From positions 62,001-126,000 of the forward strand of contig NZ_JBAMDA010000003.1 in NCBI RefSeq assembly GCF_036964665.1: a stretch of 64,000 nt of DNA, in the 5' to 3' direction. How positions within the stretch are numbered: the first letter of the stretch is position 1; the number at the start of each line of letters is the position of its first letter. The notes beneath the pieces were generated by a model. That model saw nothing but the letters and a program-made list of their open reading frames with translations, did no database searches and was not told where the DNA came from. The position numbers were made by a program, and so were the translations under genes. This stretch comes from Nitrobacter sp. NHB1. Its GTDB lineage: Bacteria > Pseudomonadota > Alphaproteobacteria > Rhizobiales > Xanthobacteraceae. This document shows, piece after piece, positions 8,083-54,801 of this stretch.

Positions 8083-8096
8083 TTGACCTAGGTCAA
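8083..8096. promoter_or_regulatory. Candidate FixK/FNR box before CBS-BON gene
   Basis: TTGACCTAGGTCAA, a perfect 14-base palindrome fitting the FixK2 consensus TTG(A/C)-N6-(T/G)CAA. Its centre lies 70 bases upstream of the ATG at 8160, as expected for an activator site near -41 with a short leader. Confidence 0.7.
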
Positions 8097-8159
8097 GCCA
8101 CCTCGATGCGTTGGCGATAGCATTTTGAGACGCTTTATCCAAACTTTCGGAGCTTTGCC

Positions 8160-8888
8160 ATGCGCGCTCATCAGATCATGACCAGGCAGGTCATCACGGT
8201 CCATCCTGACACGACCATCGTCAATGCAGCAAACATTATGCTCGAACGACACATCAGTGGCCTTCCGGTTACCAACGCGGCAGGAAAGTTGATCGGTATC
8301 GTTTCGGAAGGAGATTTTATTCGCCGTGCCGAAATTGGAACACAGCGCAGGAGGGCTCGATGGCTGAAATTCCTGCTCGGTGCCGGCAGGGACGCGTCGG
8401 ACTTCGTTCACGAGCAAGGTCGCAAGGTCGGTGAAATCATGACACCACACCCTTGTACCGTGTCAGAAGATGCGCTGCTGGAAGACATTGTGACGACGAT
8501 GGAAAAGAACAGCATCAAGCGGTTGCCGGTCATGCGGGGCAACCAGATTGTCGGAATCGTCACACGCGCCAATCTACTGCAGGCCGTCGCAGGGCTTGCC
8601 CGCGAGATTCCAGATCCGACCGCGGATGACGACCATATTCGCGACCGCATCATTACATCCATCGAAAACAGCGACTGGTGTCCATACGGACTGGGCGTCA
8701 TTGTGCACGGCGGACTCGTCCATCTCAGCGGGGTCATTACCGACGAACGGGCCCGACAGGCTGCCGTGGTCGCGGCAGAAAATGTTGCCGGCGTGAAGGA
8801 AGTTCACGATCACCTTTGCTGGGTCGATACCATGTCTGGGCTCTACTTGATTTCTCCGGAAGATGACCAACTAGCAGCGGCGCGTTGA
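8160..8888 (+). CDS. CBS-pair plus BON domain protein
   Basis: A 242-residue soluble protein. Residues 1-60 and 90-150 form a CBS pair: MRAHQIMTRQVITVHPDTT, HISGLPVTNAAGKLIGIVSEGD, then VGEIMTPHPCTVSEDALLED and IKRLPVMRGNQIVGIVTRANLL. Residues 160-230 form a BON domain (VHGGLVHLSGVITDERARQAAVVAAENVAGV). CBS pairs bind adenine nucleotides, and BON domains bind membranes or lipids. This fused form is common in stress islands of Rhizobiales, but its exact role is unknown. It is preceded by a perfect FixK-type palindrome and is the first of several BON/CBS/DUF302 genes here. Confidence 0.88.
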   Translation: MRAHQIMTRQVITVHPDTTIVNAANIMLERHISGLPVTNAAGKLIGIVSEGDFIRRAEIGTQRRRARWLKFLLGAGRDASDFVHEQGRKVGEIMTPHPCTVSEDALLEDIVTTMEKNSIKRLPVMRGNQIVGIVTRANLLQAVAGLAREIPDPTADDDHIRDRIITSIENSDWCPYGLGVIVHGGLVHLSGVITDERARQAAVVAAENVAGVKEVHDHLCWVDTMSGLYLISPEDDQLAAAR

Positions 8889-9001
8889 TTACACCAGAAG
8901 AACACAACAGATGCAGGCACACTATCGCTGTCGGCCCTGAGACGGATTGAATATTAGCTCACGACCGCGTCCGGGCCAAGCTTCCACGCATTCAAGAGGA
9001 T
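8889..9001. other. Short non-coding stretch
   Basis: A spacer between the CBS-BON gene and the 3' end of the convergent interrupted membrane-protein gene. I see no gene or clear hairpin in it. Confidence 0.4.
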
Positions 9002-9207
9002 GAGCTGGATGGAATCGGCTCTTGCATCAATGTCAATGAATAGGGTCGCAACTCGACCGGTGCTGCCGCTAGGCGCTGATACAAAGCACGCCGCTGCGCA
9101 ATCGGCCACCAATCATAAAGAAAGATTTCCAATGGGCGCCAGTTTGCGACCCATCCCAGGATCAGGAAACTTTCTCTAGCTACATTTTTTAACTGTGCAC
9201 CAGTTAG

Positions 9208-10338
9208 GGAAGCTCTGAACAACTTGGCGACTATGGCACTCTTCGATCATTGATTCGGGGAGGCGCTCGGATGGCCCAGCTGAGTTTCGCGTCGCTCGAT
9301 TATGCGGCCAAGAAGAAGCGCACGAAGCGAGATGTGTTTTTGGCTGAGATGGCAGCCGTGGTGCCTTGGGTCGCGCTCGAAGCTTTGATCGAGCCGCATT
9401 ATCCCAAGGCGGGTCCGAGTGGCGGTCGGCGACCATTTCCACTGGCCGTGATGCTACGGATTTATTGCTTGCAGCAGTGGTACAACCTCTCTGACCCCGG
9501 CGCGGAAGAAGTCCTTTACGACATTTGCTCGATGCGCACGTTTGCGGGTCTGGAGCTCGGACGCGACACCATCCCCGATGAGACGACCATCTTGAACTTC
9601 CGGCATCTGCTGGAGCGTCACGAGTTGACGAAGGCGATATTCGTCGCGATTGCAGAGTTTCTGGAGACTCGCGGTGCTCTACTGCGTGGCGGCACCATCA
9701 TCGACGCGACGCTGATCGCGGCATCGCCATCGACGAAGAACAAGGCACAGAAGCGCGACCCCGAGATGCGCTCATCGAAGAAGGGCAACCAGTGGTACTT
9801 TGGCATGAAGGCCCACATCGGTGTCGATGCGACAAGCGGGCTCGTGCACACCGCGGGCGTGACCACAGGCAGTGTGCATGACGCCAAGGTCATGGACAAT
9901 CTGATCCGCGAGGATGACCGTGCGGTGTATGGCGACAAGGGATATGCCAACGACCGCAAACAACGACAGGCGGAAGCAGCGGGCGTTCTGTGGGCCGTGA
10001 AGGCGAAAGCGAAGCCCGGGCGCCCCCTGTCGATATCGCAACGCCGGCGCAATCGCCGCTTCGGAAAAATCCGCGCCAAGGTCGAGCACGTGTTCCGGGT
10101 GATGAAATGCCAGTTCGGCTTTCGCAAGGTTCGCTATCGCGGCATCGCCAAAAACGGCGCACAGGTCTTCGCGTTGCTCGCGCTCGCAAACCTATTCCTT
10201 GCCCGCAGAACCCTTGCGTCCGCTTGACAAAGTCGCCGGGCGAATGCCGCCCGCGGCAGGTGCAAACAAAGAACCCTTCACCGCCAACGCAAACCTGTTG
10301 CGACTGCTTCAGAAAACGTGACGTTGCTCAGAGGTTCC
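9208..10338. mobile_element. Complete IS5-family insertion sequence with 4-bp target duplication
   Basis: A 1131-bp element. The left end GGAAGCTCTGAACAACTT (9208-9225) pairs with the right end, whose reverse complement is GGAACCTCTGAGCAACGT (10321-10338), with 3 mismatches in 18. It is flanked by TTAG at 9204-9207 and 10339-10342. TTAG fits the YTAR target preference of the IS5 subgroup. It encodes one intact transposase and sits inside a conserved membrane-protein gene whose frame is restored on excision, so the insertion is recent. Confidence 0.92.
9271..10227 (+). CDS. IS5-family DDE transposase, intact
   Basis: A 318-residue transposase. The ATG at 9271 follows GGGGAGG and starts the usual MAQLSFASLDYAAKKKRTKR. 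The DDE residues are visible in GGTIIDATLIAA (first Asp), DRAVYGDKGYAN (second Asp) and KVEHVFRVMKCQFGFRKVRYRG (Glu with the Y-2-R-3-E type context). No frame break is present. A central fragment of a very similar gene lies at 6181-6380, showing repeated activity of this element in the region. Confidence 0.93.
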   Translation: MAQLSFASLDYAAKKKRTKRDVFLAEMAAVVPWVALEALIEPHYPKAGPSGGRRPFPLAVMLRIYCLQQWYNLSDPGAEEVLYDICSMRTFAGLELGRDTIPDETTILNFRHLLERHELTKAIFVAIAEFLETRGALLRGGTIIDATLIAASPSTKNKAQKRDPEMRSSKKGNQWYFGMKAHIGVDATSGLVHTAGVTTGSVHDAKVMDNLIREDDRAVYGDKGYANDRKQRQAEAAGVLWAVKAKAKPGRPLSISQRRRNRRFGKIRAKVEHVFRVMKCQFGFRKVRYRGIAKNGAQVFALLALANLFLARRTLASA

Positions 10339-10844: not shown

Positions 10845-10858
10845 TTGATCTGCCGCAA
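10845..10858. promoter_or_regulatory. Candidate relaxed FixK box before DUF302 gene
   Basis: TTGATCTGCCGCAA fits TTG(A/C)-N6-(T/G)CAA but not the strict palindrome. Its centre is 62 bases before the ATG at 10914, the same spacing as the better sites. Confidence 0.5.
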
Positions 10859-10913: not shown

Positions 10914-11306
10914 ATGAAATACTACTTCAGTAAAACCTTGCCCGTCGGGTTTGACGAGGCCATACAGCAAACAACGGACGCCCTTAAGGACAACGGCTTC
11001 GGCATCATTACCGAGATCGATGTCAAAAAGACATTCAAGGAAAAACTCGGAGTCGAATTTCGCAACTACCGTATCCTTGGGGCGTGCAATCCCAAGCTGG
11101 CCTATGAGGCGCTTCAACTTGAGGACAAGGTCGGAACCATGTTGCCATGCAACGTCGTTGTTAACGAAATTGCTCAAGGTCGCACCGAAGTTGCGGCCAT
11201 CGATCCCGTCGCTTCCATGCAGGCAATCGATAATCCGCAACTTAGACAGTCGGCGGAACGTGTCCGGACTCTGCTGCAGAACGTGATCGAAAGCCTCAAA
11301 GGCTAG
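10914..11306 (+). CDS. DUF302 family protein (copy 1)
   Basis: A 130-residue soluble protein beginning MKYYFSKTLPVGFDEAIQQT, with the start set by AAGGAA at 10903. The DUF302 core is clear: GFGIITEIDVKKTFKEKLG, YRILGACNPKLAYEALQLE and the LPCNVVV strand followed by VAAIDPVASM. Structures of the family show a dimeric alpha/beta fold, and the function is unknown; the conserved Cys residues in GACNP and LPCN suggest metal or redox binding. A close paralogue is encoded at 45576-45962 behind an RND pump. The gene is preceded by a relaxed FixK-type site. Confidence 0.9.
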   Translation: MKYYFSKTLPVGFDEAIQQTTDALKDNGFGIITEIDVKKTFKEKLGVEFRNYRILGACNPKLAYEALQLEDKVGTMLPCNVVVNEIAQGRTEVAAIDPVASMQAIDNPQLRQSAERVRTLLQNVIESLKG

Positions 11307-11468: not shown

Positions 11469-11482
11469 TTGATTCTGATCAA
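11469..11482. promoter_or_regulatory. Candidate FixK/FNR box before BON gene
   Basis: TTGATTCTGATCAA matches the FNR/FixK consensus TTGAT-N4-ATCAA at every fixed position. Its centre is 68 bases upstream of the ATG at 11544. Confidence 0.75.
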
Positions 11483-11543: not shown

Positions 11544-12191
11544 ATGATTGACTCTCAACTTCGTCAAGACATCATCGACGAATTCGAATTTGACCCAGCT
11601 TTCGATGGCGAGCATATTGGTGTCGCCGTCGATAAGAATGTCGTCAGCTTAACCGGCCACGTTACCAGCTATGCCCAGAAGGTCGCAGCCATCGCAGCTG
11701 CTCGGCGCGTCAAGGGTGTGCACGCGATCGCGGAGAACATCGAGGTCCGCTACCCGTTCCAGACCAAGACGGCGGATGACCAGATCGCCAAACGGGCGAT
11801 GGATATCCTGAAGTGGAATGTCACTGTTCCAGATACCGTCGACGTGCTCGTTCAAGACGGCTGGGTCACGCTAAGCGGCCACGTCAATTGGTACTATCAG
11901 AAAACAGCGGCGGAAGACGATGTTCGCAAACTTTCCGGCGTGCGCGGTGTAACGAACAGAATCACCATCAAGCCCCACGCTGAGGCATCGAACGTCAAAA
12001 CCAAGATCGAGTTGGCGCTCAAACGCCACGCGGAAATCGAAGCCAATGCTATTCGCGTTACGGTCGAGAATGGCAACAAGGTCATTCTAGACGGCAAGGT
12101 CGACAATTGGGATGAACGACGTGCCGCCGAAAACGCCGCTTGGTCAGCACCCGGTGTGGCCTTTGTCGAAGACCACCTAACGATCCGCTGA
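11544..12191 (+). CDS. Triple-BON domain protein
   Basis: A 215-residue protein with three BON repeats, at roughly 5-70, 80-145 and 150-215. Each has the pattern V-x-V-x-x-x-x-V-x-L-x-G-x-V: AVDKNVVSLTGHVTSYAQK, VLVQDGWVTLSGHVNWYYQK and VTVENGNKVILDGKVDNWDE. No signal peptide is seen, so it is probably cytoplasmic. The ATG at 11544 is preferred because GGAGAACG lies just before it and the family starts with MxDxxLRQDIIDE. Family members are osmotic- or stress-induced; the molecular role is not established. A perfect FixK/FNR palindrome and a downstream hairpin bracket it as a single transcription unit. Confidence 0.88.
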   Translation: MIDSQLRQDIIDEFEFDPAFDGEHIGVAVDKNVVSLTGHVTSYAQKVAAIAAARRVKGVHAIAENIEVRYPFQTKTADDQIAKRAMDILKWNVTVPDTVDVLVQDGWVTLSGHVNWYYQKTAAEDDVRKLSGVRGVTNRITIKPHAEASNVKTKIELALKRHAEIEANAIRVTVENGNKVILDGKVDNWDERRAAENAAWSAPGVAFVEDHLTIR

Positions 12192-12670: not shown

Positions 12671-14206
12671 GTGACGAGTGACGATCCGCCATTCTTTGAA
12701 AGCCTATTCCGGGACGAGGATTTACAGCGCGGCCTCGACGAATCCGGAATTGGGGTATGGGATCTCGATCTGTCGACCCAGGAATTGATCTGGTCCAGCG
12801 CAACACGCAGGCTTTTTGGCGTCTCGCAGAATGACCCTGTCAACTATGATCTTTTCCTCTCCCTGCTCAAGCCGAAAGATCGTGAACGCACCGAATCGGC
12901 TATTCAGCGCTCCATCCAGACCGGGTGTAAGTTCGATATTCAGTTCCGGATCCGCGAGAGACCAGAAGGGAGTCACTGGGTTCGGGCACGAGGCGGCCTC
13001 GTCATCAACGAAGACGGAGTACCGCGCCGCCTGAGTGGCGTGATACTCGATATCGACGATCAGAAGTTGGTTGAGGAAGCGTTACTCGCGCGCGAAGATC
13101 ATCTGCGTTCGATTCTCCACACGATTCCCGATGCGATGATCGTTATTGACGGTCACGGCATTATGCAGCGCTTCAGCACGGCCGCCGAGCACTTGTTTGG
13201 CTACTCAGAACCCGAAGCCATTGGCCAAAACGTCAGTATTCTTATGCCTGAACCGGATAGCAGCCGCCACGACGGCTATTTGGCTCGCTATCAATCCACC
13301 GGCGAGCGGCACATCATCGGCATCGGACGGATTGTGACCGGAAAGCGTCGGGATGGGACCACCTTTCCAATGCACCTGTCCGTCGGTGAGATGCAGTCCG
13401 GTGGGAAACGGCATTTTACCGGGTTTGTTCGCGATCTCACGGAGCATCAGCAAACTCAGGCAAAACTTCAAGAGCTGCAATCCGAACTGGTTCACATGTC
13501 TCGCTTGAGTGCGATGGGCGAAATGGCATCGGCTCTCGCGCATGAATTGAACCAGCCCCTTGCCGCGATCAGCAACTACATGAAGGGATCGCGTCGTCTT
13601 CTGGCGGCCAGCGCCGCCCCCAACATCTCGAAGATCGAAACGGCGTTGGATCGCGCTGCGGACCAGGCCATCCGCGCCGGCCAGATCATTCGACGGTTGC
13701 GAGATTTCGTCTCCCGGCGGGAGTCCGAGAAGCGTGTCGAAAGCCTGGCGAAGCTGATGGAAGAAGCCGGGGCTCTCGGTCTCGCGGGCGCCCGCGAGCA
13801 AAACGTCATGCTGCGGCTTGAGCTAGATCCGGAATGCGACCGCATCCTGGTCGATCGCGTGCAGATTCAGCAGGTCCTGGTCAATCTCTTTCGAAATGCA
13901 TTGGAGGCAATGGCAGAATCGCCGAAACGGGAACTTGCCGTTTCCAGTGCGAAGGCTTCAGACGATATGATCGAATTGTCGATATCGGATACCGGCCATG
14001 GCTTCAGTGAGACCGCCGTTAAAAATCTGTTCGAGACTTTCTTCACCACGAAGGAAACCGGTATGGGCGTCGGGCTCTCGATCAGCCGGTCGATCGTGGA
14101 AGCCCACGGTGGCCGAATGTGGGCCGAAACGAACGATTTCGGCGGCGCCACCTTCCGACTGACCTTGCCAATTGCGCCGAATGAGGATTTGCCAGGTGCC
14201 GCATAG
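12671..14206 (+). CDS. fixL: FixL oxygen-sensing histidine kinase
   Basis: A 511-residue kinase with an N-terminal PAS domain (about 18-130), a heme PAS domain (about 140-255) and HisKA/HATPase domains. The heme PAS has [10 protein letters not shown], with the proximal ligand at H200, and [19 protein letters not shown], with H214 and R220. These are the Bradyrhizobium FixL positions. The phospho-acceptor is H291 in [18 protein letters not shown]1 and G2 boxes follow ([35 protein letters not shown]). FixL loses oxygen when it becomes scarce and then phosphorylates FixJ. No membrane segments are seen, again as in Bradyrhizobium. The GTG start at 12671 gives the family-typical length. fixJ overlaps its 3' end. 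Confidence 0.96.
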
Positions 14207-14810
14207 CGGAAATGTCTACGTTATCGACGACGATTCCGCGTTGCGGGACTCGCTCGATTTTCTCCTTGGCACGGTGGGCTTTGAAGTGACGGTGTTTGAA
14301 ACCGCCGCTGACTTCCTCGATGCCCATGCCGGTCTTGGTTTTGGCTGTGTCGTGTCGGACGTTCGCATGCCGGGTATCGATGGAATGGACCTGCTCCGTC
14401 GCCTTAAAGCCAGCACCTCGCCCCTGCCTGTCATCATCATGACCGGACACGGAGACATCGCCCTCGCGGTTGAAGCTATAAAGTTAGGGGCGCTCGATTT
14501 TGTCGAAAAGCCGTTTGAAGATGAACGGCTGATCGGAATGATCGAGGCCGCCCTCCAGAGCCATGATCATGTGAAAAGCGACGCCGTCTCGGCCGAGATC
14601 GCATCGAGGGTCGCGAGTCTCAGTCAACGCGAACGTCAGGTCATGGACGGCCTTGTTGCAGGATTATCCAACAAGCTGATCGCCCGCGAACACAATATCA
14701 GCCCCAGAACGATCGAGGTTTACCGGGCGAATGTCATGACCAAAATGCAGGCGCACAACCTGTCCGAATTGATCCGGCTCGCACTGCGCGCAGGCATTTT
14801 GAACGATTGA
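14196..14810 (+). CDS. fixJ: FixJ response regulator
   Basis: A 204-residue regulator with a receiver domain (phospho-acceptor D55 in [10 protein letters not shown], acidic DDD near the N-terminus, K in FVEKPFED) and a LuxR-type HTH domain ([36 protein letters not shown]). The GTG at 14196 is chosen because the protein then starts [12 protein letters not shown] like known FixJ; it overlaps the fixL stop by 11 bases. Phosphorylated FixJ activates fixK transcription under low oxygen. Confidence 0.95.
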
Positions 14811-14879
14811 GCCAAATCAAGCCGTCGCATTCCCATAATCGTATCGTCAGCGATTAACCTTTCGGATTCGCGGCATCAG

Positions 14880-15272
14880 ATGACAGACCGAACAACCACA
14901 AAGCACAAGATCTGCGTTCTCGATGACGATCCTGACGTGCTTCAGTCGCTGCGGTTTCTTCTCGAAACCCACGGTTTCGAGGTTCGCACGTTTAGCGCCG
15001 CCGCGCCGCTGTTGACGTCCATTGACCTGGACGGTGTCGATTGCCTGGTGATCGATTACAAACTGCCCTGTATGAATGGACTGGATGTGGCGGCTCGTCT
15101 CCGTCAACGCAATGTCGTGGCGCCGATCATTCTCATTACCGGCTATCCCGACCAGCATATCGCGGAGAAGGCCGCGGCCGCCGGCATAGATTATATTTTG
15201 TTTAAGCCTCATCTGGAGAGCCTCGTGACGCGCGTTCGGGAGGCCATCTCTCGCCAATACCTGAGCCATTAG
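14880..15272 (+). CDS. Single-domain response regulator (FixJ-locus receiver)
   Basis: A 130-residue receiver with no output domain: DDDPDVLQSL at the acidic pocket, phospho-acceptor D59 in CLVIDYKLPCMNG, T in IILITGYPD and K in YILFKPHLES. A stand-alone receiver occupies the same place between fixJ and fixK2 in Bradyrhizobium, and this is likely the same gene. Its role there is unclear; phosphate sink or FixL modulator are possibilities. It lies 69 bases after fixJ. Confidence 0.88.
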   Translation: MTDRTTTKHKICVLDDDPDVLQSLRFLLETHGFEVRTFSAAAPLLTSIDLDGVDCLVIDYKLPCMNGLDVAARLRQRNVVAPIILITGYPDQHIAEKAAAAGIDYILFKPHLESLVTRVREAISRQYLSH

Positions 15273-15341
15273 AAACCCTTCGCTGGAACCAAATGGCCGT
15301 TCCCGGAGATCCGCGCAGCCTGGCTCACCTCCGGTAACCTA

Positions 15342-15361
15342 CTTAGGGTGCGGCCCCTAAG
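15342..15361. promoter_or_regulatory. Inverted repeat upstream of fixK
   Basis: CTTAGGG-N6-CCCTAAG, perfect 7-base arms, 70-89 bases before the fixK ATG. Since FixJ is known to activate fixK genes, this is a candidate FixJ-dependent or autoregulatory site. The assignment is an inference from position. Confidence 0.4.
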
Positions 15362-15430: not shown

Positions 15431-16117
15431 ATGCTTACGCAGTCAGTCAGCACCCACGAAATGCCCCGCAACAGCAAGCTGCCCGTTGAAGTCGGAGACA
15501 AGTTCGGGCTTATCGTGGGCCGTGCCTGCCTCGTGGCAACAGAATTCAAATACAGCAAGGAAGAAGAGATCTACGGCGAGAACGAACCTGCCGAGTTTGT
15601 CTACCAGGTCGTCCGCGGCGCCGTTCGTAGCCACAAGTTGCTTTCAGACGGGCGGCGCCAGATTGGCGCATTTTACTTGCCGGGGGACGTGTTTGGGCTG
15701 GAGGCCAGTTCGAACCACAGGTTGACGGCAGAGGCTATTATCAACACAACCGTTCGCCTCGTAAAGCATAGCAGCTTGGAGCACGCGGCAGCAATCGACG
15801 TAGAGGTTACCCGCAGGCTCTGGAACATGACGGCTGGCGATCTTCAGCACGCCGAAAACCATATGCTATTGCTCGGGCGCAAGACCGCCATGGAGCGAGT
15901 CGCTGCCTTTCTGCTGGAAATGGACCACCGCCTTTCGGCTGCGGCGATGATGGCTCTACCCATGTGTCGACGTGATATCGGGGACTACCTCGGCCTTACG
16001 TTGGAAACAGTTTCGCGGGCCCTCTCCGAGCTTCATGATCGAGGCATCCTCGATTTTTCAGGAGCCCGCCAGATCGTCCTTCGGAATCGCCAGCATCTCC
16101 GCACCATGAGCGCCTGA
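15431..16117 (+). CDS. fixK2: FixK2-type CRP/FNR regulator
   Basis: A 228-residue CRP/FNR protein: cyclic-nucleotide-binding-like domain at about 30-150 and HTH at about 170-215 (CRRDIGDYLGLTLETVSRAL). It lacks the N-terminal cysteine cluster of FNR, so it does not sense oxygen directly. Cys179, just before the recognition helix in ALPMCRRDIGDYLGL, corresponds to the redox-sensitive cysteine of Bradyrhizobium FixK2. AAGGAG precedes the ATG. The gene order fixL-fixJ-receiver-fixK2 matches Bradyrhizobium. The protein should recognise TTG(A/C)-N6-(T/G)CAA, and such sites occur before at least six genes in this window. Confidence 0.92.
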   Translation: MLTQSVSTHEMPRNSKLPVEVGDKFGLIVGRACLVATEFKYSKEEEIYGENEPAEFVYQVVRGAVRSHKLLSDGRRQIGAFYLPGDVFGLEASSNHRLTAEAIINTTVRLVKHSSLEHAAAIDVEVTRRLWNMTAGDLQHAENHMLLLGRKTAMERVAAFLLEMDHRLSAAAMMALPMCRRDIGDYLGLTLETVSRALSELHDRGILDFSGARQIVLRNRQHLRTMSA

Positions 16118-17808: not shown

Positions 17809-19353
17809 ATGAACGATATCGACCTCCCTCGGCCCCAGCCGAAGATCCGTCGTGTCAACCTCGATACCGGCCGCGAAAACGTCGTCGTTATATCGCGGCG
17901 CTCCAGAGCCCTCCGACCGGAGATCTTTCGGGGCTTCAGTCGCGTGGAGCTCCGTCGGAATGCCAAGATCATGCTGGCCACGCTCATCATTACCGACGAT
18001 GACTCGTTAGTGGGCCCCGACGACCTGGGGCTTTCTGAGCCGGCATTCAGGCGCTTCGCAGAGTCCGTGGGCAGCGCCGTAACCGTTGCACCGGCAACCT
18101 CTCCGTCCAGCCTCGATGCGGTGCGCGCCAAAATCATGGGGCAAACCTTCAGCGCTGTCGATATCAGCACGATTGTCGATGATCTCACCCATTATCGGTA
18201 CTCCGACATGGAGATAGCCGCATTCCTAATCAGTTCTGCCAGTTTTATGACAAATGGCGAACTCATCGCTTTGGTCGATTCGATGGCTCGGGCCGGGACG
18301 CAGCTCAAGTGGAGCAATCCGATTGTCGTCGACAAACATTGCATCGGCGGCATTCCCGGAAATCGCACATCCATGATTGTGGTGCCGATCGTGGCAGCCC
18401 ATGGGCTCACGATTCCAAAGACGTCATCCCGAGCGATTACCTCCCCCGCCGGCACGGCCGATACGATGGAAACGCTGGCGCGTGTCGATGTGGGCGTTGA
18501 AGAAATGAAAGACATCGTGGCTGCATGCCGCGGCTGTCTGGTGTGGGGTGGACATGTCAATCTGTCCCCGGCGGACGACATCCTGATTTCGGTTGAGCGG
18601 CCACTTGGTCTCGATACCCGCGAGCAAATGGTGGCGTCGATCATGTCAAAAAAGCTCGCCGCCGGCTCAACCCACCTCCTGATTGATCTGCCTGTCGGTC
18701 CGACGGCCAAGCTCGTCAACACGATGGATGCGATGAGGCTGCGCAAATTATTCGAGTTCGTCGGTGATCATTTTGGGATATGCGTTGAGGTTGTCGTTAC
18801 CGATGGTTGCCAACCGATCGGCAACGGCATCGGTCCAGCTCTTGAGGCTCAGGATGTTATGGCGGTTTTGGCTAATGATCCGGGAGCGCCAGCAGACCTG
18901 CGTGAGAAATCTCTGCAGCTTGCCGCGAGCCTGCTCGAATATGATCCGAAGCTGCGTGGTGGGAGCGGCTATGCCCGCGCACGCGAACTGCTCGATAGCG
19001 GCGCCGCGCTCAAACAAATGCAAGAGATCATCGACGCGCAAGGGCCTTCGACTTGTTGCACAGACTTGGGGAAATTGACGTTCGATGTCACAGCTTCACG
19101 CGATGGATTCGTCTCCAGCATCGATTGCTTGCAACTGAACCGGCTTGCGCGAACTGCGGGGGCGCCGATCGATAAAGGCGCCGGCATCAGGCTGTTCAAG
19201 AAACTTGGAGACCGCGTCCAGCAAGGGGAGCCGCTTTACCGTATCTATGCATTTGACCAGTCGGAGCATGATCTTGCCGCCGCCGGAACAAAGATCAATA
19301 CGGCCTACAAGATCGGAAGCGAGCAAGCCAGCAGCCTTGAGGCGCCATCGTGA
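17809..19353 (+). CDS. AMP phosphorylase / thymidine phosphorylase-like enzyme
   Basis: A 514-residue member of the nucleoside phosphorylase II family. Unlike classical DeoA (~440 aa) it has an extra N-terminal domain of about 90 residues. Its active-site segment reads [15 protein letters not shown] and [20 protein letters not shown], the form seen in archaeal AMP phosphorylases rather than the KHSTGG of thymidine phosphorylase. Archaeal homologues convert nucleoside 5'-monophosphate plus phosphate to base and ribose 1,5-bisphosphate. The substrate here is inferred. The GTG of the next gene overlaps the stop by 4 bases, starting a three-gene coupled operon. Confidence 0.85.
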
Positions 19354-20270
19354 GCAGTATTACCATCCAGTATCTGTCATCCTCGGCGGCTGATGCGAAG
19401 CGGCTTGCATCCCGGCTTGGGATTGCCGCTCATGAGATTGCCCTGCATTACTTTCCCGATGGCGAGATGCGTGTGACGGCTGGTCCCGCGACATCGACAA
19501 CAATCATCTACGCCTCGCTCGACCGGCCCAACGACAAATTGATCGCCATCTTGTTTGCCGCCGAGGCGCTCCGCCGCCAAGGCTCGAAACGCCTCGTGCT
19601 GCTAGCCCCATATCTTTGCTACATGCGTCAGGACACCGCTTTCCATGAAGGCGAGGCGATCAGCCAGAAAGCCGTCGGCCAAATGATTGTGAACACCGTC
19701 GATCGTGTCATCACAGTGGACGCTCATTTGCATCGGACCCCTGACATCAGAGTTGTCTTTCCAGGTATTGATGCCGATAATCTTTCCGCCATGCCGGCGA
19801 TCACTGGCGCGCTTCGTGCGGAAAATATCGACCCGGCGACGGTCGTGGTCGGCCCCGATGCGGAATCCCGGCAGTGGGCGAGTTATCTTGCAGAAAGTCT
19901 CGGCCTGACCTGCGCCGTTGCGCAAAAGGCTCGTCATGGCGACCAGTCTGTCGAACTCAGATTTGCCAACCCCTCTTTGTTTGCCGGCCGCCCTGCCCTG
20001 ATAACCGACGATATCGTATCATCAGGCGGCACCCTGATCGCCTGCGCGAAAGCTCTTTCGGCCGCCGGCGCCACGGTTGTTGATGCCGTCGTCACGCATG
20101 CGCTGTTCCCGCCGGAACTGATGGTTGCGCTCGCGAACGTCGGCATTCATTCGATCCGATCAACCCACAGCGTGCCGCACGCCACCAACACGTTTGTTCT
20201 CGATGATCTCTTCGCTTCGGCCCTCCACCGCGAGTTCGGCGATACCATCCTGTTCGAGGCTATTTCATGA
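19350..20270 (+). CDS. Ribose-phosphate diphosphokinase (PRPP synthase)-like protein
   Basis: A 306-residue protein with two phosphoribosyltransferase-like halves. Class features are present: FPDGEMRV near 35, [19 protein letters not shown] (the flexible-loop region, where classical PRPP synthases read PYxRQDR), the TVDAHLHR metal site and the PRPP loop [14 protein letters not shown]. The usual reaction is ribose 5-phosphate plus ATP to PRPP plus AMP. The altered loop and the operon partners suggest a specialised paralogue, not the housekeeping enzyme. It overlaps both neighbours by 4 bases, so all three proteins are probably made in equal amounts. Confidence 0.87.
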
Positions 20271-21865
20271 GCGTCACCATTCAATTCTGCGGTGCGGCAC
20301 GCACAGTTACGGGTTCTTGTTATCGCTTCAAGACTCCGGCAGGCAGCTTTCTGGTCGATTGCGGGCTTTTTCAGGGGCAGAAGACGCTCAAGGAGCTGAA
20401 CTACACTGCCTTCCCATTTCGCCCGGCCGATATCGATGTTGTCCTTCTGACTCATGCCCACATCGATCACAGCGGACTGCTGCCGAAATTGGTGCGCGAA
20501 GGTTTTCGCGGCCGGATACTGGCGACGCGCGGAACGATCGATCTGTGTTCGTATATGTTGCCGGATTCCGGGAGCATTCAGGAATCCGAGGTCATCGCTC
20601 TGAACCTGCGTAACGCAAAACGCGGGAGATCCGAGGTCAGCCCGATCTACACCCAGGCCGATGCCATTGCCTCACTGCAGGCGTTCCAGCCCGTTGAGTA
20701 CGAGGCGTGGACCGACGTCATACCGGCCGTACGCGCTCGCTATTGGAATGCCGGCCATCTTCTCGGGTCTGCCTCGATCGAACTGGAGTTTTCTGAAGAA
20801 AGCACATCTTCCCAACCTCTGCGACTGCTCGCTTCCGGCGATGTCGGCCCCGATACGAAGTTGCTGCAACCCAACCCTGTCGCCCCGGCAGGATTCGACT
20901 ACGTCATTTCGGAATCGACCTATGGCGATCGTATTCGCCCGGAAACGACACGACAAAGCCGCCAGCGACGCCTGACCGCCGAGGTTCGCGACGCCGCCGC
21001 AGCGAACGGCGCCTTGCTGATTCCCGCCTTCGCTGTCGAACGCACGCAGGAGCTGATCATCGACTTGGTTGATCTGATGGAACGCAGCGAAATACCTGCT
21101 GCACCGATCTTCCTCGATTCCCCTCTCGCGATTCGCGCAACAGAAGTTTTCCGAAAGCATGCTGCAAGCCTCGATCCGAGCATCGATGCGCTTCGCTTGC
21201 TCAATTCACCTCATCTCAGATTCACTGAGACGGTGGAAGAGAGCAAGTCGATCGCCAAGCTCTCCGGCTTTCACATCATTATTGCAGCGAGCGGCATGTG
21301 TGACGCTGGCCGTATCCGCCACCATCTTAAGCATTGGCTGTGGAATAGTCGGGCCACGGTGCTTCTGGTCGGCTTTCAGGCCCGCGGCACGCTGGGGCGG
21401 TTCCTCGAGGACGGAACCAAAGCCGTCCGCATCCAGGGCGAGGAGATCAAGGTGGCGGCGCGGATTCGTCGGATCGACGATTATTCAGGACATGCGGACG
21501 GCTCCGAACTGGCGCGATGGATCGCAGCTCGCCGTCCCATTCGGAGGGGCATATTCCTGGTTCATGGTGAAGAGTCGGCCATTGTGGGACTATCGGAGCG
21601 GATTGCAGATCGGCTTGTTCCATCCGCGAAAATTTTTCTTCCTCTTCTCGATGACATCTATGACTTGTCGACAAATGTGCCGACGAACCTCAATGCGGCG
21701 AACCGCCGTCGGCTAACACCCGAGGCCGTTGTCGCACTCGATTGGCACAACGATATGTCCAAACTTATACTCGACATCAACGAAAAGGTTGCAGCGGCCG
21801 CAGACGATCGTGCACGAAACGTCGTCATCAGAAGATTGAGACGAGCACTGGATCCGGAAAACTGA
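20267..21865 (+). CDS. MBL-fold beta-CASP (CPSF/RNase J-like) protein
   Basis: A 532-residue protein. The metallo-beta-lactamase core has HAHIDHSG (motif 2) near 65-72, YWNAGHLLGSASIEL (motif 3) and SGDVG (motif 4). A beta-CASP insert follows (ESTYGD, AFAVERTQELI), and the RNA-specificity C-terminal motif is IDDYSGHADGSELARW. This architecture is that of RNA-processing nucleases such as CPSF73-like enzymes. The ATGA overlap with the PRPP synthase-like gene ties it to nucleotide metabolism. A C-terminal extension after about 470 is unusual and of unknown role. Whether it cuts RNA has to be inferred. Confidence 0.87.
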   Translation: MSVTIQFCGAARTVTGSCYRFKTPAGSFLVDCGLFQGQKTLKELNYTAFPFRPADIDVVLLTHAHIDHSGLLPKLVREGFRGRILATRGTIDLCSYMLPDSGSIQESEVIALNLRNAKRGRSEVSPIYTQADAIASLQAFQPVEYEAWTDVIPAVRARYWNAGHLLGSASIELEFSEESTSSQPLRLLASGDVGPDTKLLQPNPVAPAGFDYVISESTYGDRIRPETTRQSRQRRLTAEVRDAAAANGALLIPAFAVERTQELIIDLVDLMERSEIPAAPIFLDSPLAIRATEVFRKHAASLDPSIDALRLLNSPHLRFTETVEESKSIAKLSGFHIIIAASGMCDAGRIRHHLKHWLWNSRATVLLVGFQARGTLGRFLEDGTKAVRIQGEEIKVAARIRRIDDYSGHADGSELARWIAARRPIRRGIFLVHGEESAIVGLSERIADRLVPSAKIFLPLLDDIYDLSTNVPTNLNAANRRRLTPEAVVALDWHNDMSKLILDINEKVAAAADDRARNVVIRRLRRALDPEN

Positions 21866-34045: not shown

Positions 34046-34059
34046 TTGATGGAAATCAA
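34046..34059. promoter_or_regulatory. Candidate FixK/FNR box before cytochrome b gene
   Basis: TTGATGGAAATCAA, all fixed positions of TTGAT-N4-ATCAA are met. Its centre is 87 bases upstream of the ATG at 34140, and AAGGAG precedes that start. Confidence 0.75.
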
Positions 34060-39639: not shown

Positions 39640-39653
39640 TTGAACCAGATCAA
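39640..39653. promoter_or_regulatory. Candidate FixK/FNR box before SQR-like gene
   Basis: TTGAACCAGATCAA fits TTGA-N6-TCAA. Its centre is 61 bases before the ATG at 39708, which has GGAGGA as ribosome site. Control of this gene may thus combine sulfide repression and low-oxygen activation. Confidence 0.65.
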
Positions 39654-41000: not shown

Positions 41001-41029
41001 GCGCAGTCTTCAAACAAAAGGAAACGACA

Positions 41030-41233
41030 ATGACAATCGATCGCGCCGTGATGATGTTTGCCGGCTTCATGGTTCTCGTGTCGCTAGGGCTCGGCCTCTA
41101 CGTGTCGCCCTGGTGGTACCTGCTCACGGCCTTCGTCGGGCTGAATCTGATCCAGGCGTCGATGACAGGATTCTGCCCGGCGGCCATGGTCTTCAGGAGG
41201 CTCGGCTGTCCCGCAGGCGTCGCGTTCAAATAA
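41030..41233 (+). CDS. DUF2892 (YgaP-type) membrane protein
   Basis: A 67-residue protein with two membrane helices: MTIDRAVMMFAGFMVLVSLG and WWYLLTAFVGLNLIQASMTG FCP. This is the DUF2892 domain found fused to rhodanese in YgaP and as stand-alone genes in sulfur clusters. The FCPAA motif with Cys and a second Cys (RRLGCPAG) are conserved. It follows the SQR-like gene by 29 bases and probably belongs to the same operon. Confidence 0.88.
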   Translation: MTIDRAVMMFAGFMVLVSLGLGLYVSPWWYLLTAFVGLNLIQASMTGFCPAAMVFRRLGCPAGVAFK

Positions 41234-41253
41234 AGGCAAGCCTTCTTCATCCG

Positions 41254-42312: not shown

Positions 42313-45300
42313 AGCTTGGACTCGCCGGCAATCTCACCCGCGCCTTCATCGCTTCTCCGTTGACGCCGCTGTTCCTGCTCGCATCCCTTGCGCTCGGGCT
42401 TGTGGCGCTGATCTCGCTGCCGCGCGAGGAAGAGCCGCAGATATCCGTACCTATGGTCGATATCCATGTCGCCGCCAACGGGCTGAAGGCCGAGGACGCC
42501 GTGAAGCTCGTCACCGAGCCGCTGGAAACGATCGTCAAGAGCATTGATGGGGTGGAGCACCTCTACTCGCAGACCCAAGACGACGGCACCGTGGTGACGG
42601 CGCGGTTCAAGGTCGGCACCAATTCGGACGCCGCCATTCTTCGCGTGCACGAGAAGGTCCGGGCCAACATGAACCGGATCCCGGTCGGGATTCCGGAGCC
42701 GCTCATCGTCGGCCGCGGCATCGACGACGTGGCGATCGTGGTCGTCACGCTGCGTCCGACGACGGCGGCAGCGTCCCGATGGACTGCGAACGGGCTGACG
42801 CGGCTCGCCCGCGAGCTGCAGGTCGAGGTGTCCAAGCTGCCCGACGTCGGCCTCACCTACATCGTCGGCGAGCAGCCGGAGCAGTTTCGCGTCGAACCCG
42901 ATCCGGAAAAGCTCTCGCTCTACGGCATCACCCTTCAGCAGCTTGCCGCCAAGATCGAAGGCGCCAACCGTTCGTTCCGCATCGGCACGGTGAGGGAGGA
43001 CACGCAGCAGCGCGCGATCGTCGCCGGGCAAACCCTGCAGGCGTTGCCCGAGATCGGCAACATCCTGCTCACCGCGCGCGACGGCCGTCCGGTCTATGTC
43101 CGCGACGTCGCCAATGTCGTGCTTGCGACCTCGCCGGCCGAAAACCGCGTCACTGACATCCGCAAAACGACGGATGCCGGCCTTGAAGGCGCGCCCGCCG
43201 TTTCGCTCGCCATCGCCAAGCGTCCCGGCACCAATGCGGTGGTGATTGCCGACGAGATCGTGCGGCAGCTGGAGCAGGCGCGCGGCCAGATCTTTCCGGC
43301 GGATGTCGAGATGACGGTCACGCGCAACTACGGCGAAACGGCGAACGAGAAGGCTAACGAACTTCTGTTCCATCTCGGCCTCGCCACTGTATCGATCGTT
43401 GTGCTGGTCGCCGTCGCCATCGGCTGGCGGGAAGCGCTCGTGGTCGCGGTGGTGATCCCGACCACGATCCTGCTCACGCTGTTCGCCTCCTGGATCATGG
43501 GCTACACGCTCAACCGCGTCAGCCTGTTCGCTCTGATCTTCTCCATCGGCATTCTGGTGGACGACGCCATCGTGGTGATCGAGAACATCGCCCGCCACTG
43601 GGCGATGCGCGACGGCCGCTCGCGCGCGCAGGCCGCGATCGACGCGGTCGCCGAGGTCGGCAATCCGACCGTCGTCGCGACGCTGACGGTGGTGGCGGCG
43701 CTGCTGCCGATGCTGTTCGTGTCCGGCATGATGGGGCCCTATATGAGCCCGATTCCGGCCAATGCCTCGGCGGCGATGCTGTTCTCCTTCTTCGTCGCCG
43801 TTATCCTGACGCCATGGCTGATGATGAAGTTCGGCGGTGGCCATGCGGGCGGCGGTCACGAGGATGCGGGCGGCGGCCGTCTCGGCCGGATTTACGTTGC
43901 GGTCGCAAGGCCCATCCTTGCTGCCCGCTGGCGGTCCTGGACTTTTCTTCTGGTCGTCGGCTTTGCCACGCTGGCCTCGCTCGGACTGATCTACACCAGG
44001 CATGTCACGGTGAAACTCCTGCCCTTCGACAACAAAGCCAATCTCCAGGTCGTGCTCGACCTGCCGAAGGGCTCGTCTATCGAGGACACCGACCGGACGC
44101 TGCAGGCGATGGTCGATCGCCTGGCATCCGTGCCAGAAATCGTGTCGTTCCAGACCTACGCCGGCACGGCTGCGCCGTTCGATTTCAACGGGCTGGTGCG
44201 GCACTATTATCTCCGCTCCGGTCCCGAGCAAGGCGATATCGCCGTGAACCTGCTCGCGAAAGGCGACCGCGCGCGCGCCAGCCACGCCATCGCGCTTGAA
44301 CTCAGGCAGCGCCTGAGCGGTCTCGACCTGCCGAAGAACACCGTCGTGAAGGTGGTCGAGCCGCCTCCGGGGCCGCCGGTGCTCGGCACGCTGCTCGCGG
44401 AGATCTACGGTCCCGATCCGGACACCCGGCGCGCGGTGGCCGCCAAAGTGCGCGCGGCGTTCAAGAGCGTGCCGTTCATCGTCGATGTCGACGACAGCTA
44501 TCACAACCAGGCTGAGCGCGTGCGCGTCGCGATCAATCAGGACAATCTCGAATATTACAAGGTCGAGCAATCGGACGTTTACGACACCCTGCGCGATCTC
44601 TATGGCGGCACCACGGTGGGCTATTCCCAGCGCGGCGGAGGGCGCTATCCGATCGCCATCCGCCTCGCGCTGCCCAAGGCGAACGCGGTGATGGATGCGC
44701 GCGCGCTGACGACGCCGGTGCCCGCCAACGCGCTACCCGGCGGCCGCGGGGTGGTCGAACTCGGCGATGTTGTTAGTGTCTCCCATGAGCCGGCGTCCTA
44801 TCCAATCTTCCGGCACAATGGCCGCCCCGCCGAAATGGTGCTGGCGGAACTCGCCGGCGCCTACGAAGCACCGATCTACGGCATGCTCGCGGTGCGCGAC
44901 GCGATCGATCGGATCGACTGGGGCAGCCTGCCAAAGCCCGTGATCGCACTGCACGGTCAACCGGACAACGAAACGTACCCGACCCTGCTTTGGGACGGCG
45001 AATGGGAGGTGACCTGGGTGACCTTCCGCGATATGGGCGCAGCTTTCATGGTGGCGATCCTCGGCATCTACATTCTGGTGGTTGCGCAGTTTGGCTCGTT
45101 CAAGCTGCCGCTCGTCATCCTGACGCCGATCCCGCTCACCTTCATTGGTATCATGCTTGGCCACTGGCTGTTCAATGCGCCCTTCACGGCGACCTCCATG
45201 ATCGGCTTCATCGCGCTCGCCGGCATTATCGTGCGCAACTCGATCCTGCTGGTGGATTTCATCCGCCATGCGCGCCGGCCCGACCGGCCGTTGACCGACG

Positions 45301-45566
45301 TGCTGCTGGAAGCGGGCGCAATCCGCTTCAAGCCGATCCTCTTGACCGCGATCGCCGCCATGATCGGCGCAGCCGTCATCCTCGCCGACCCGATCTTCCA
45401 GGGGCTCGCGATTTCGCTCCTGTTCGGTCTGGCATCATCGACGGCGCTGACCGTGCTCGTCATCCCCGCAATTTATGTCGTGCTGAGAGGAGACCGGCAG
45501 CCGGGTCAGGGCCGGCAAACACCAACGCCTGCTGAGTTGCCGGCTCAGCATCAACCTGAAACATAG
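42309..45566 (+). CDS. RND efflux permease (AcrB-like, HAE type)
   Basis: A 1085-residue pump with 12 membrane helices and two periplasmic loops. Features: LARGE first loop after LISLPREEEPQISVPMVDIH, proton-relay helix with FSIGILVDDAIVVIENIARH (the DD pair of HAE pumps) and a C-terminal GIIVRNSILLVDFIRHARRP helix. It groups with export systems of the AcrB/MexF side rather than metal pumps. Substrate is unknown; the operon with SQR and DUF2892 suggests export of a sulfur-related or toxic compound. A truncated inverted copy lies at 24405-25547. Confidence 0.9.
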   Translation: MKLGLAGNLTRAFIASPLTPLFLLASLALGLVALISLPREEEPQISVPMVDIHVAANGLKAEDAVKLVTEPLETIVKSIDGVEHLYSQTQDDGTVVTARFKVGTNSDAAILRVHEKVRANMNRIPVGIPEPLIVGRGIDDVAIVVVTLRPTTAAASRWTANGLTRLARELQVEVSKLPDVGLTYIVGEQPEQFRVEPDPEKLSLYGITLQQLAAKIEGANRSFRIGTVREDTQQRAIVAGQTLQALPEIGNILLTARDGRPVYVRDVANVVLATSPAENRVTDIRKTTDAGLEGAPAVSLAIAKRPGTNAVVIADEIVRQLEQARGQIFPADVEMTVTRNYGETANEKANELLFHLGLATVSIVVLVAVAIGWREALVVAVVIPTTILLTLFASWIMGYTLNRVSLFALIFSIGILVDDAIVVIENIARHWAMRDGRSRAQAAIDAVAEVGNPTVVATLTVVAALLPMLFVSGMMGPYMSPIPANASAAMLFSFFVAVILTPWLMMKFGGGHAGGGHEDAGGGRLGRIYVAVARPILAARWRSWTFLLVVGFATLASLGLIYTRHVTVKLLPFDNKANLQVVLDLPKGSSIEDTDRTLQAMVDRLASVPEIVSFQTYAGTAAPFDFNGLVRHYYLRSGPEQGDIAVNLLAKGDRARASHAIALELRQRLSGLDLPKNTVVKVVEPPPGPPVLGTLLAEIYGPDPDTRRAVAAKVRAAFKSVPFIVDVDDSYHNQAERVRVAINQDNLEYYKVEQSDVYDTLRDLYGGTTVGYSQRGGGRYPIAIRLALPKANAVMDARALTTPVPANALPGGRGVVELGDVVSVSHEPASYPIFRHNGRPAEMVLAELAGAYEAPIYGMLAVRDAIDRIDWGSLPKPVIALHGQPDNETYPTLLWDGEWEVTWVTFRDMGAAFMVAILGIYILVVAQFGSFKLPLVILTPIPLTFIGIMLGHWLFNAPFTATSMIGFIALAGIIVRNSILLVDFIRHARRPDRPLTDVLLEAGAIRFKPILLTAIAAMIGAAVILADPIFQGLAISLLFGLASSTALTVLVIPAIYVVLRGDRQPGQGRQTPTPAELPAQHQPET

Positions 45567-45575
45567 GAGACCACC

Positions 45576-45962
45576 ATGAGTTACTATTTTGCGAAAACAC
45601 TTCATTGTTCTTTCGACGAGGCCATGCAACGGGCGACGGACGCGCTCAAGCAAGCTGGCTTCGGTATCATCACCGAAATCGACGTGAAGGAGACGCTAAA
45701 GAAGAAGCTCGACGTGAATTTCCGCAACTATCATATCCTCGGTGCTTGCAATCCAGCTATGGCGCGCGAGGCTTTGGAGATTGAGGATAAGATTGGCACG
45801 ATGCTGCCTTGTAACGTCATCGTTCAGGATATCGGCCGCGGTGATATTGAAGTCGCCGCCATCGATCCTGTCGCATCAATGGTTGCGGTCGACAATCCCA
45901 CGCTGAAGGTACCAGCCGGAAAGGTGCGCGATATGCTGAAAGCGGTCGTCGATATTCTGTAG
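45576..45962 (+). CDS. DUF302 family protein (copy 2)
   Basis: A 128-residue paralogue of the protein at 10914-11306, with MSYYFAKTLHCSFDEAMQRA, GFGIITEIDVKETLKKKLDV, YHILGACNPAMAREALEIED and LPCNVIVQD. The GACNP and LPCN cysteines are shared. It follows the RND pump by 9 bases with GGAGACC as ribosome site, so it ends the sulfide-type operon, while the first copy is a single gene behind a FixK-type site. Confidence 0.9.
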   Translation: MSYYFAKTLHCSFDEAMQRATDALKQAGFGIITEIDVKETLKKKLDVNFRNYHILGACNPAMAREALEIEDKIGTMLPCNVIVQDIGRGDIEVAAIDPVASMVAVDNPTLKVPAGKVRDMLKAVVDIL

Positions 45963-50786: not shown

Positions 50787-51097
50787 ATGGCCACCTTGCG
50801 TCGCGGCATCGGTCGGCTGATAGACCGCTATGCCGAGGATGTCATCGACAAGGTGGAATTCGACGCGGTCGATGTGGCCGAGAATGAACGCGAGCTGTCA
50901 CTCTTGATCTTGATCAACCGCTTGGAGGAGTTCTTCGCCAAAGTGAAGGTAGGACTCGCTGCCTTGACAGGACCGGCATGCGACAGATCGTCCGTGCCGT
51001 AATTCGCGGGGTCGAGATCGATGACACGCAGGTCGAGATCATCTTTAGGGTTCCGCCACTCGACGGCCCGGCCAGGCCAAAATCGCCAAGCAAAATG
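50787..51097 (+). pseudogene. Serine recombinase C-terminal fragment
   Basis: LRRGIGRLIDRYAEDVIDKV EFD, then ELSLLILINRLEEFFAKVKV GLA, and in a shifted frame QIVRAVIRGVEIDDTQVEII FRVPP. This is the coiled-coil end and C-terminus of large serine recombinases like the one at 62968. At least one frameshift occurs near 50980. Confidence 0.75.
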
Positions 51098-53460: not shown

Positions 53461-53939
53461 CGTAATAGCATCAAAGAAGCCAGGCGCCAGCTCAGGCTGA
53501 CACCGTGACTGCTTCAAACAATAATTGTCGTGGAAACCGTCGGTGTTGTGGTTCCCATCCTGCGTCGACGGGGCGCGCGTCCAATTATAGACTATCCTCA
53601 TCGCATGTTGAAAAGCTCAGAGCGCGGATCGAAGACCCAAGCTCCGGCCATCCCCGAAGCGGCGCGCAAATGCCTTGCTCTTCTCGTTGAGACACTCTCC
53701 AAACATTGAAGGGCGACTGCGGCCATTAACGTCGTGGAGCGACCACGTCGCGAGACGGCTGATGAGCATTCCCGGCGTCGTGCGCAGTCATCTCGGCGCA
53801 ATACGGACCTTCTCATGCCGGCGTGTCTGGCGTCGATCCTTCAGTACTCGTTCTGCCGGTTTGTCCGACCCGGATTTCTGTTTCATCTTTACTCCTTAAA
53901 GCTACGATGAATCAGAACACTTCCGTTTGAAAAGTCCTT
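53461..53939. other. IS debris, no intact gene
   Basis: Short stretches such as ARRLMSIPGV near 53750 recall IS110 C-termini, but nothing longer can be followed. Confidence 0.35.
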
Positions 53940-54276
53940 CAATCGATCCCAGACGTGCTGACGGAGAACAATCCTGGTGCCGTCCGGAATGTGATTCAAT
54001 TGGGTAGCGCGATCTCCGACAACATGAGTGCGCATGCCGGGCGTCGATGCATACCACTGAAAGATCGACCCTACGAAGTTCATGCCATAGCCAGCTTGCC
54101 ATCGCCCCCGTCTCAAAACCGATGCGCTCCGCATGCGGCGCCCGCTCGCGAAGCAGCGCGGTGAGCGCCCCCGGATCGGACTTGGCTTTTCCCTCGAACA
54201 AAATATGCCCTGTCTCGTTGAGCACGCACACCGAGGTTTCCCTTTGCGAGACGTCTAATCCGACATATTGCTTCAT
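53940..54276 (-). pseudogene. IS110-family transposase N-terminal fragment
   Basis: The frame starts [20 protein letters not shown] (first Asp of the DEDD site) and continues [20 protein letters not shown], then [10 protein letters not shown], where the frame is lost near 54030. The rest of the transposase is absent. It is not the same element as that at 4856-5887. Confidence 0.8.
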
Positions 54277-54419
54277 AGCCCCTCCGATTCGTGTGATTGC
54301 GTGAGGGCTTGAAGATAGCGGACCTTTCGTCTCGCACGCCGCCCGCAATTACGTCATCGTACAGGGGTCAGATCGCTGCAGGTGATAAAGACAACAGGAA
54401 AAAAGCCGGAGTGGAGTCA

Positions 54420-54648
54420 CGATGCGCTGCGAACCGTCTGAGCAGCAAGATTCCTCGGAAAGGTTTGGCTTTGCTGCGGCAACGGAGCGTGTGCGCACTT
54501 ACGCGAACACGAGATAGCGCTCATCTGATGCCAGCAGAACAGCCGTATGCTCGGCACCACCTGCGCCGAACCGCGAACGAGAATACGACCCCGACAATGA
54601 TAACAAGTCAAGGGCGATGGCCGCGACGGACAGCACGCGTGCAGTCAT
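54420..54648 (-). pseudogene. Cytochrome c' N-terminal remnant
   Basis: MTARVLSVAAIAL at 54648 is nearly identical to the start of the cytochrome at 49911-50387 (MTARVLSITAIAL). After it the frame shifts more than once; HTAVLLASDERYLVFA matches TTVLLGSNERNLVLT of the intact copy. The heme-binding part is gone. It lies between IS debris and aioB, divergent from aioB. Confidence 0.75.
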
Positions 54649-54787
54649 GGGATCAATCTCCTTGTTGCCCATGATAGGAGTCATCACCGGGAAATACAGC
54701 ACGACCACAAATGCGATCGGTGCGACATTTCGGGCTTGGAAACTATGGCGCGGTTGGCGGGCATGCTTCGCTGAGCCCCTGTTAGGC

Positions 54788-54801
54788 TTGATCTGAATCA
54801 A
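54788..54801. promoter_or_regulatory. Candidate FixK/FNR box upstream of aioBA
   Basis: TTGATCTGAATCAA meets all fixed positions of TTGAT-N4-ATCAA. Its centre is 198 bases before the chosen GTG start of aioB, leaving a leader of about 150 bases if it activates from -41. Confidence 0.65.

Follow-up and report, generated by a model that had tools for sequence, protein, structure and literature searches.

The window analysed here, a stretch of 64,000 nucleotides from Nitrobacter sp. NHB1, carries genes for FixL, FixJ, a FrrA-like response regulator and FixK2, together with copies of the palindrome TTGA-N6-TCAA (hereafter the strict FixK box) in front of stress-type genes, a metal RND operon, a cytochrome b561 gene, a sulfide-quinone reductase (SQR) operon and the arsenite oxidase genes aioBA. 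The genome comprises 3.79 Mb in four contigs, and the window is C3:62001-126000, that is, part of the third contig. As one RepC gene is present on C3 (and another on C4), C3 is probably a repABC plasmid. IS sequence in this DNA shows 98% identity to N. hamburgensis, which suggests the genus Nitrobacter.

A first-pass annotation, made from the letters of the window, had placed FixLJ-FixK2 genes in the same window as the boxes, and protein comparisons bear this out: FixL and FixJ exceed their NCBIfam cut-offs, and FixK2 is recognized by its match to PDB 4i2o (Table 1). FixL has the heme-PAS and kinase domains and the conserved heme His/Arg, which we take to be the heme- and O2-binding residues, and FixJ carries a LuxR-type helix-turn-helix (GerE domain). 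The recognition helix of FixK2, LTLETVSR, is identical to that of 4i2o, and a Cys stands where the 4i2o chain has Ser; that this chain is a C183S variant follows from PMC9104804. FixK2 falls below the NCBIfam FixK cut-off (221 vs 300), the model being named for Caulobacter. The genome has no other close FixK: the two matches that follow are 31% and 26% identical, and seven places encoding a Crp-type helix-turn-helix were found genome-wide. On these matches we regard the FixL, FixJ and FixK2 assignments as genuine. The receiver-only regulator gene at 14880 occupies the position of bll2758 and is presumably the gene called frrA. Upstream of fixK, at -78 to -98, CTACTTAG or CTACGTAG is present in six of nine loci including this one (the start in L094 being approximate), and may represent a FixJ box, judged by the consensus.

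Distribution and placement of the boxes

All six strict sites reported in the first-pass annotation (8083, 11469, 29035, 34046, 39640 and 54788) were found, as was its relaxed site before the DUF302 gene at 10845, which matches the FixK2 box published for B. diazoefficiens, TTGA/C-N6-T/GCAA (PMC9104804). Three strict sites (14807, 28440 and 50904) and the degenerate box at 17737 had been overlooked. The window holds nine strict sites against 0.85 expected, consistent with the earlier estimate of fewer than one by chance, and none of 100 shuffles reached nine. Genome-wide there are 72 strict sites (43 on the 3,307-kb C1, 25 on the 276-kb C3 and 4 on the 209-kb C4), and a reversed-pattern control yielded 13. 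The 89 kb of C3:28,000-117,000, which we refer to as the island, contain 19 of the 25 sites on C3 and the remaining 187 kb contain six, so the cluster starts ~34 kb to the left of the window; the whole-genome comparison of site density that had been proposed earlier thus sets 19 sites in the 89-kb island against 43 in the 3.3 Mb of C1. Within the island, the half-sites TTGA and TCAA stand at a gap of 6 in 19 cases, and each of the 15 other gaps in the range 0-15 yields 0-2 cases. Chance palindromes as the source of the cluster were rejected on the basis of the shuffles and of this enrichment at gap 6 only.

By a crude gene caller, 23 of the 25 sites on C3 lie outside called genes (the called-coding share of C3 being ~76%), as do 19/43 on C1 and 3/4 on C4, and several of the 19 on C1 actually lie inside long open reading frames (ORFs). 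A large second regulon on the chromosome was rejected: ten downstream ORFs, scanned at nine loci of the 43 C1 sites, included no typical FixK target (integrase, transposase, GGDEF/EAL, PAS, COX1, methyltransferase, and four without a family). Site 28440 was likewise rejected as a promoter box, having no called gene downstream and a copy at C3:153961, and is probably due to chance. The stretch TTGAGCGCCGTCAA is found twice on C3, at C3:90440 (window 28440) and C3:153961, in neither case with a called gene downstream, and probably belongs to a duplicated or mobile segment.

The distances of 61-87 bases between box centre and start codon given earlier for the sites other than that of aioBA hold (61.5-87.5 bp as measured); the aioBA distance was revised, as described below. 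We then scored TATAAT-type hexamers downstream of the boxes in 19 oriented C3 promoters, made up of the relaxed DUF302 box and 17 strict sites, of which one was scored in each direction. The test omitted the other eight strict sites, namely C3:258515, where the cytochrome b promoter is duplicated, and seven that have no clear gene (C3 positions 4101, 28400, 90440, 135940, 153961, 157460 and 188084). The score was maximal 28.5 bp from the box centre, with a mean of 5.9 that 0/2000 shuffles matched at any of 60 offsets, and a 20-promoter version of the test gave an identical peak. A -10-like hexamer at this offset would place the box centre at about -41, a spacing that fits class II activation.

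Table 1 Features in the window, in order of position (distances and offsets in bp from the box centre)
Feature	Position	Strand	Basis or detail
FixK box TTGACCTAGGTCAA before CBS-BON gene	8083..8096	+	strict; 70.5 to ATG 8160; TAGCAT at offset 28.5
CBS-CBS-BON protein	8160..8888	+	Pfam
Relaxed FixK2 box TTGATCTGCCGCAA before DUF302 gene	10845..10858	+	62.5 to ATG 10914
DUF302 protein	10914..11306	+	Pfam (searched as longer ORF 10800-11306)
FixK box TTGATTCTGATCAA before BON gene	11469..11482	+	strict; 68.5 to ATG 11544
Three-BON-domain protein	11544..12191	+	Pfam, three stretches (searched as longer ORF 11436-12191)
FixL, PAS-heme sensor kinase	12671..14206	+	NCBIfam NF041777, 948.8 bits (cut-off 850); PDB 1dp6, E 3.2e-69
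FixJ response regulator	14196..14810	+	NCBIfam NF006900, 327 bits (cut-off 255)
FixK box TTGAGCCAAATCAA before frrA-like gene	14807..14820	+	strict; 66.5; TATCGT at offset 28.5
Receiver-only response regulator, frrA-like	14880..15272	+	Pfam
FixJ-box-like CTACTTAG	15339..15346	-	~90 bp before fixK
FixK2	15431..16117	+	PDB 4i2o (FixK2), E 5e-103
Degenerate box ATGATTTGAGTCAA	17737..17750	+	65.5 to 17809
Thymidine/AMP phosphorylase, PRPP synthetase and MBL genes	17809..21865	+	gene order as bll3117-bll3115
FixK box TTGACACAAATCAA before metal RND operon	29035..29048	+	strict; 86.5 to ATG 29128
HlyD-type adaptor, CusA/CzcA-family RND pump, DUF3240	29128..33661	+	TIGR00914, 1018 bits (cut-off 701)
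FixK box TTGATGGAAATCAA before cytochrome b561 gene	34046..34059	+	strict; 87.5
Cytochrome b561	34140..34856	+	Pfam
FixK box TTGAACCAGATCAA before SQR operon	39640..39653	+	strict; 61.5; poor -10
SQR, small ORF, adaptor, second RND pump, DUF302	39708..45962	+	SQR by PDB 3kpk
Strict box TTGATCTTGATCAA before 108-aa ORF and Usp gene	50904..50917	+	67.5 to the ORF
Strict box TTGATCTGAATCAA ahead of aioBA, membership uncertain	54788..54801	+	matrix score 20.4
Degenerate sigma-54-like TGGCCCGGCGGGTGCT before aioB	54949..54964	+	sequence scan
aioB (probable start GTG 54993) and aioA, arsenite oxidase	54993..58126	+	TIGR02694, TIGR02693 above cut-off

Conservation in relatives and known counterparts

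Ortholog searches covered 198 family genomes each. No more than 30 loci were read in any one of them, a number that covers part of the matches for SQR and CBS-BON. The boxes before the frrA-like, CBS-BON, RND, cytochrome b561 and SQR genes recur before orthologues in other genera. A strict box at the frrA position was present in all 12 other fixLJ-frrA loci (7 + 5, one being a B. septentrionale plasmid). Counting the locus studied here, strict boxes were found within 450 bp upstream of CBS-BON in 21/30 loci (the box lying between -60 and -72 in 20) and of the metal RND operon in 6/8, and within 350 bp upstream of SQR in 7/30, where the box lies at -59 to -61 within the genus and at -96 to -134 in other genera; at one SQR/cytochrome b locus (L135) the stretch was cut short by the contig end. 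For cytochrome b561 the count was four of six loci, two being the genome's own copies. A box identical to TTGATTCTGATCAA precedes the sole ortholog seen of the BON gene (L294), the sole ortholog seen of the DUF302 gene (L299) has none, and Usp orthologs in L094, L101 and L296 have a relaxed box ~60 bp upstream. Much of the island, with boxes, is present on one 85.8-kb contig of another genus (G102, contig C57): the 45.8 kb read there include RND, the SQR operon, alcohol dehydrogenase, Usp/cytochrome c, MlaE, Hsp20, CBS-BON, BON and fixLJ-frrA-fixK, and have no match to aioBA.

The core of the island resembles regulons already described, and the module is thus of a known kind. In B. diazoefficiens, PMC9104804 gives as FixK2-dependent Hsp20, Usp, phosphoketolase, the thymidine phosphorylase-MBL genes and an RND adaptor, all of which have counterparts here. 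Among these are bll3117-bll3115 (PMC9104804), whose box ATGATCTGGGTCAA is degenerate like that at 17737, the two being matched by gene name and order. Microoxia-induced genes of the same species include bll2758 and those for CBS, CusA/CzcA RND and DUF302 proteins (PMC6515984). The FixK core regulon that has been predicted for Bradyrhizobium, Nitrobacter and Rhodopseudomonas, comprising FixL, FixJ, Hsp20, HlyD, phosphoketolase, CBS, cytochrome c, ABC permease, kinase and zinc alcohol dehydrogenase, matches C3:36-64 kb and the fixLJ block by gene name (PMC2908626); Table 1 of that paper does not, however, place SQR, an arsenite oxidase or an RND permease under FixK. The arrangement also differs from that of B. 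diazoefficiens in that one probable plasmid unites cascade and targets and also carries SQR and cytochrome b561, with arsenite oxidase nearby. The closest plasmid counterpart, B. septentrionale pBs162S2a (L288), has seven strict boxes in 40.7 kb and, as here, fixK2 (70%), a boxed response regulator, phosphoketolase, cytochrome c and Usp, whereas its sensor is annotated CHASE3 (54% to FixL over 365 aa) and the stretch read contains no RND or SQR. In our literature search nothing joined FixK with 'sulfide quinone', and for FixK with 'arsenite oxidase' FixK appeared once only, in a reference title. The plasmid setting, with this one precedent, and SQR membership are the additions to what is known.

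Several further observations concern individual genes. SQR matches PDB 3kpk (sulfide-quinone reductase) at E 6e-139 and scored under every NCBIfam cut-off that it met. A C-terminal RND permease fragment (window 24405-25355, minus strand) is 93% identical to the pump end in the SQR operons of two other genomes (G003, G006), and an ALIL pseudoknot (RF01497, 119.6 bits) lies at window 38754-38870 on the minus strand. The second cytochrome b561 copy (C3:257778-258443) encodes a protein 95% identical over 222 residues to that at C3:96140 (window 34140), and both have TTGATGGAAATCAA upstream. The 108-aa ORF after box 50904 belongs to no known family, the Usp gene being next. To the left of the window, C3:36620-38776 encodes a 718-aa protein with a PCMT methyltransferase domain and an erythromycin-esterase-like domain, an ortholog of which (92%) adjoins fixK in L101. 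N. hamburgensis plasmid 2 has an unannotated fixK relative (L289, NC_007960 25981-26634; 65%) with two strict boxes in the surrounding 40.7 kb, and this gene may be a relic.

The box upstream of aioBA

An AioB start at 54801, with the box centre 6.5 bp upstream, was rejected; alignment to the solved AioB 4aay and a Shine-Dalgarno sequence point to GTG 54993, where AioB probably starts, and the box centre is therefore 198.5 bp upstream. Scored with a FixK matrix trained partly on the island but from which the aioB box was excluded, the box reaches 20.4, and none of at least 20 occurs in 396 kb of background (the rest of C3 plus C4). At the common spacing stands GGATAA, with a -10 score of 1. 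AioB was detected at E 1e-30 in 33/296 family genomes including this one and in 0/8 others of the genus. We read fixed stretches upstream of 29 of 34 relatives' matches (23 distinct upstreams) and of 80 GTDB loci. A strict or relaxed box within 500 bp upstream of aioBA was present in 0/29 family relatives' loci, and a strict box in 1/80 GTDB loci (L241, a distant metagenome-assembled genome), and we therefore rejected aioBA as a conserved FixK target. A sigma-54-like TGG...TGCA element occurs upstream of 25/29 and 33/80, respectively. On N. hamburgensis plasmid 2, aioBA adjoins an ArsR-type gene and has no box in the stretch read. A blastn search of window 53401-55000 against the aio loci gave no match.

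The locus has neither the conserved class II box with a -10 expected of a FixK2 regulon member nor the -24/-12 promoter and local AioR expected of an AioXSR/sigma-54 operon, its sigma-54-like element being degenerate; sigma-54 activators gave eight hits, all on C1 and none on C3. Pieces of IS110 and IS66 transposases flank aioBA, and one may guess that insertion sequence (IS) elements removed the sigma-54 element. Since a -24/-12 element is reported to accompany aio only where aioXSR is present (PMC3834237), the element may instead never have existed in this lineage.

FixK control of aioBA is possible. The odds are about even, however, that the box is a chance palindrome and that aioBA is otherwise controlled or constitutive: roughly one strict site is expected per 64 kb, the aio genes of Polaromonas GM1 are constitutive, lack aioXSR and have an integrase just upstream (PMC5908839), and N. 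hamburgensis is listed as having aioBA without aioXSR (PMC3834237), although the very high score of a box excluded from training argues against chance. One may postulate alternatively, at rather less than even odds, that FixK2 has captured aioBA, such that in place of AioXSR/sigma-54 control a class II promoter with a ~157-nt leader would drive the genes at low oxygen. The perfect box and its score, the degenerate sigma-54 element with no activator on C3, and the transposase pieces on either side are consistent with this scenario, as is a similar geometry in R. palustris TIE-1, where FixK acts on an inorganic electron-donor oxidation operon, pioABC, through a class II box at -44.5 and a long leader, the start lying 177 bp before the ATG (PMC3050613). 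That case concerns iron and was shown experimentally, whereas the aioBA case concerns arsenite and is a prediction; moreover, pioABC rose in a delta-fixK strain under other phototrophic conditions (PMC3050613). The rarity of the box in relatives, including its absence from the N. hamburgensis stretch, and the poor -10 also argue against capture, as do the sigma-54 regulators on C1, which include one FlbD, one NtrC-like protein below cut-off and two other strong ones.

A probable plasmid-borne oxygen-response regulon

The genes, boxes, spacing and conservation described above strongly support a local FixK2 regulon, and we assign a probability of about 0.85 to a probably plasmid-borne, complete FixL-FixJ-FrrA-FixK2 cascade with most of its likely targets within ~89 kb. 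Judged from homology, which is the basis for oxygen sensing, FixK2 binding and activation alike, low oxygen would switch FixL on, FixJ would then activate fixK2, and FixK2 would bind TTGA-N6-TCAA boxes centred ~41 bp before transcription starts and recruit RNA polymerase. The conserved members would be the stress proteins, the metal RND pump, cytochrome b561 and the SQR-RND operon; the aioBA box would be a lineage-specific site. The first-pass annotation had proposed a self-contained low-oxygen module joining metal export, sulfide oxidation and arsenite oxidation. A largely self-contained regulon of stress, metal-export and sulfide genes, with conserved boxes at class II positions, is supported; arsenite oxidation as a member is so far not supported, given an unconserved box, a poor -10 and a misplaced start.

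This interpretation must be made cautiously, as several observations weigh against it. The strict box is missing in 9/30 CBS-BON and 23/30 SQR loci, and when the 256 half-sites are simply counted, TTGA comes only third in the island and fifth in the window, in the company of G+C-rich ones. Scores at the common -10 spacing are weak for SQR (2), the PCMT gene (1), a P-type ATPase (3) and a 327-aa gene (4), as for aioB, and the promoters and orientations in that test were picked from gene positions, with site 61221 counted in both directions. Finally, C3 also encodes an FNR-type protein (C3:274573-275298), the 31% FixK match, whose FNR-like character and Cys cluster make it a rival reader of the boxes. 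Such a cluster can bind Fe-S, and the protein might mainly or jointly read the boxes in place of FixK2 through direct Fe-S oxygen sensing. Its top NCBIfam match is FnrL (201 bits, cut-off 300), it has CxxCx7C near the N-terminus, its gene would be only ~29 kb away from the left end of the island if C3 is circular, and the sites of FNR, FixK and DNR are very similar (PMC2908626); the island nevertheless contains fixK2 and not the FNR-type gene, and its genes look like the published FixK core regulon rather than the FNR one (PMC2908626), and we consider this alternative unlikely.

More tentatively, the plasmid may be a portable low-oxygen regulon that recruits detoxification and lithotrophy genes, with metal export and sulfide oxidation as early members and the IS-flanked aioBA, lacking AioXSR/sigma-54 control, newly captured by FixK2. 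On the FixK2 reading, what is probably a plasmid would hold an oxygen-response cascade along with much of its regulon, including sulfide oxidation and CzcA-type metal export, which other genera share as members. If aioBA is indeed under FixK2, control of this arsenite oxidase would have passed from an arsenite-sensing sigma-54 system to an oxygen-responsive one.

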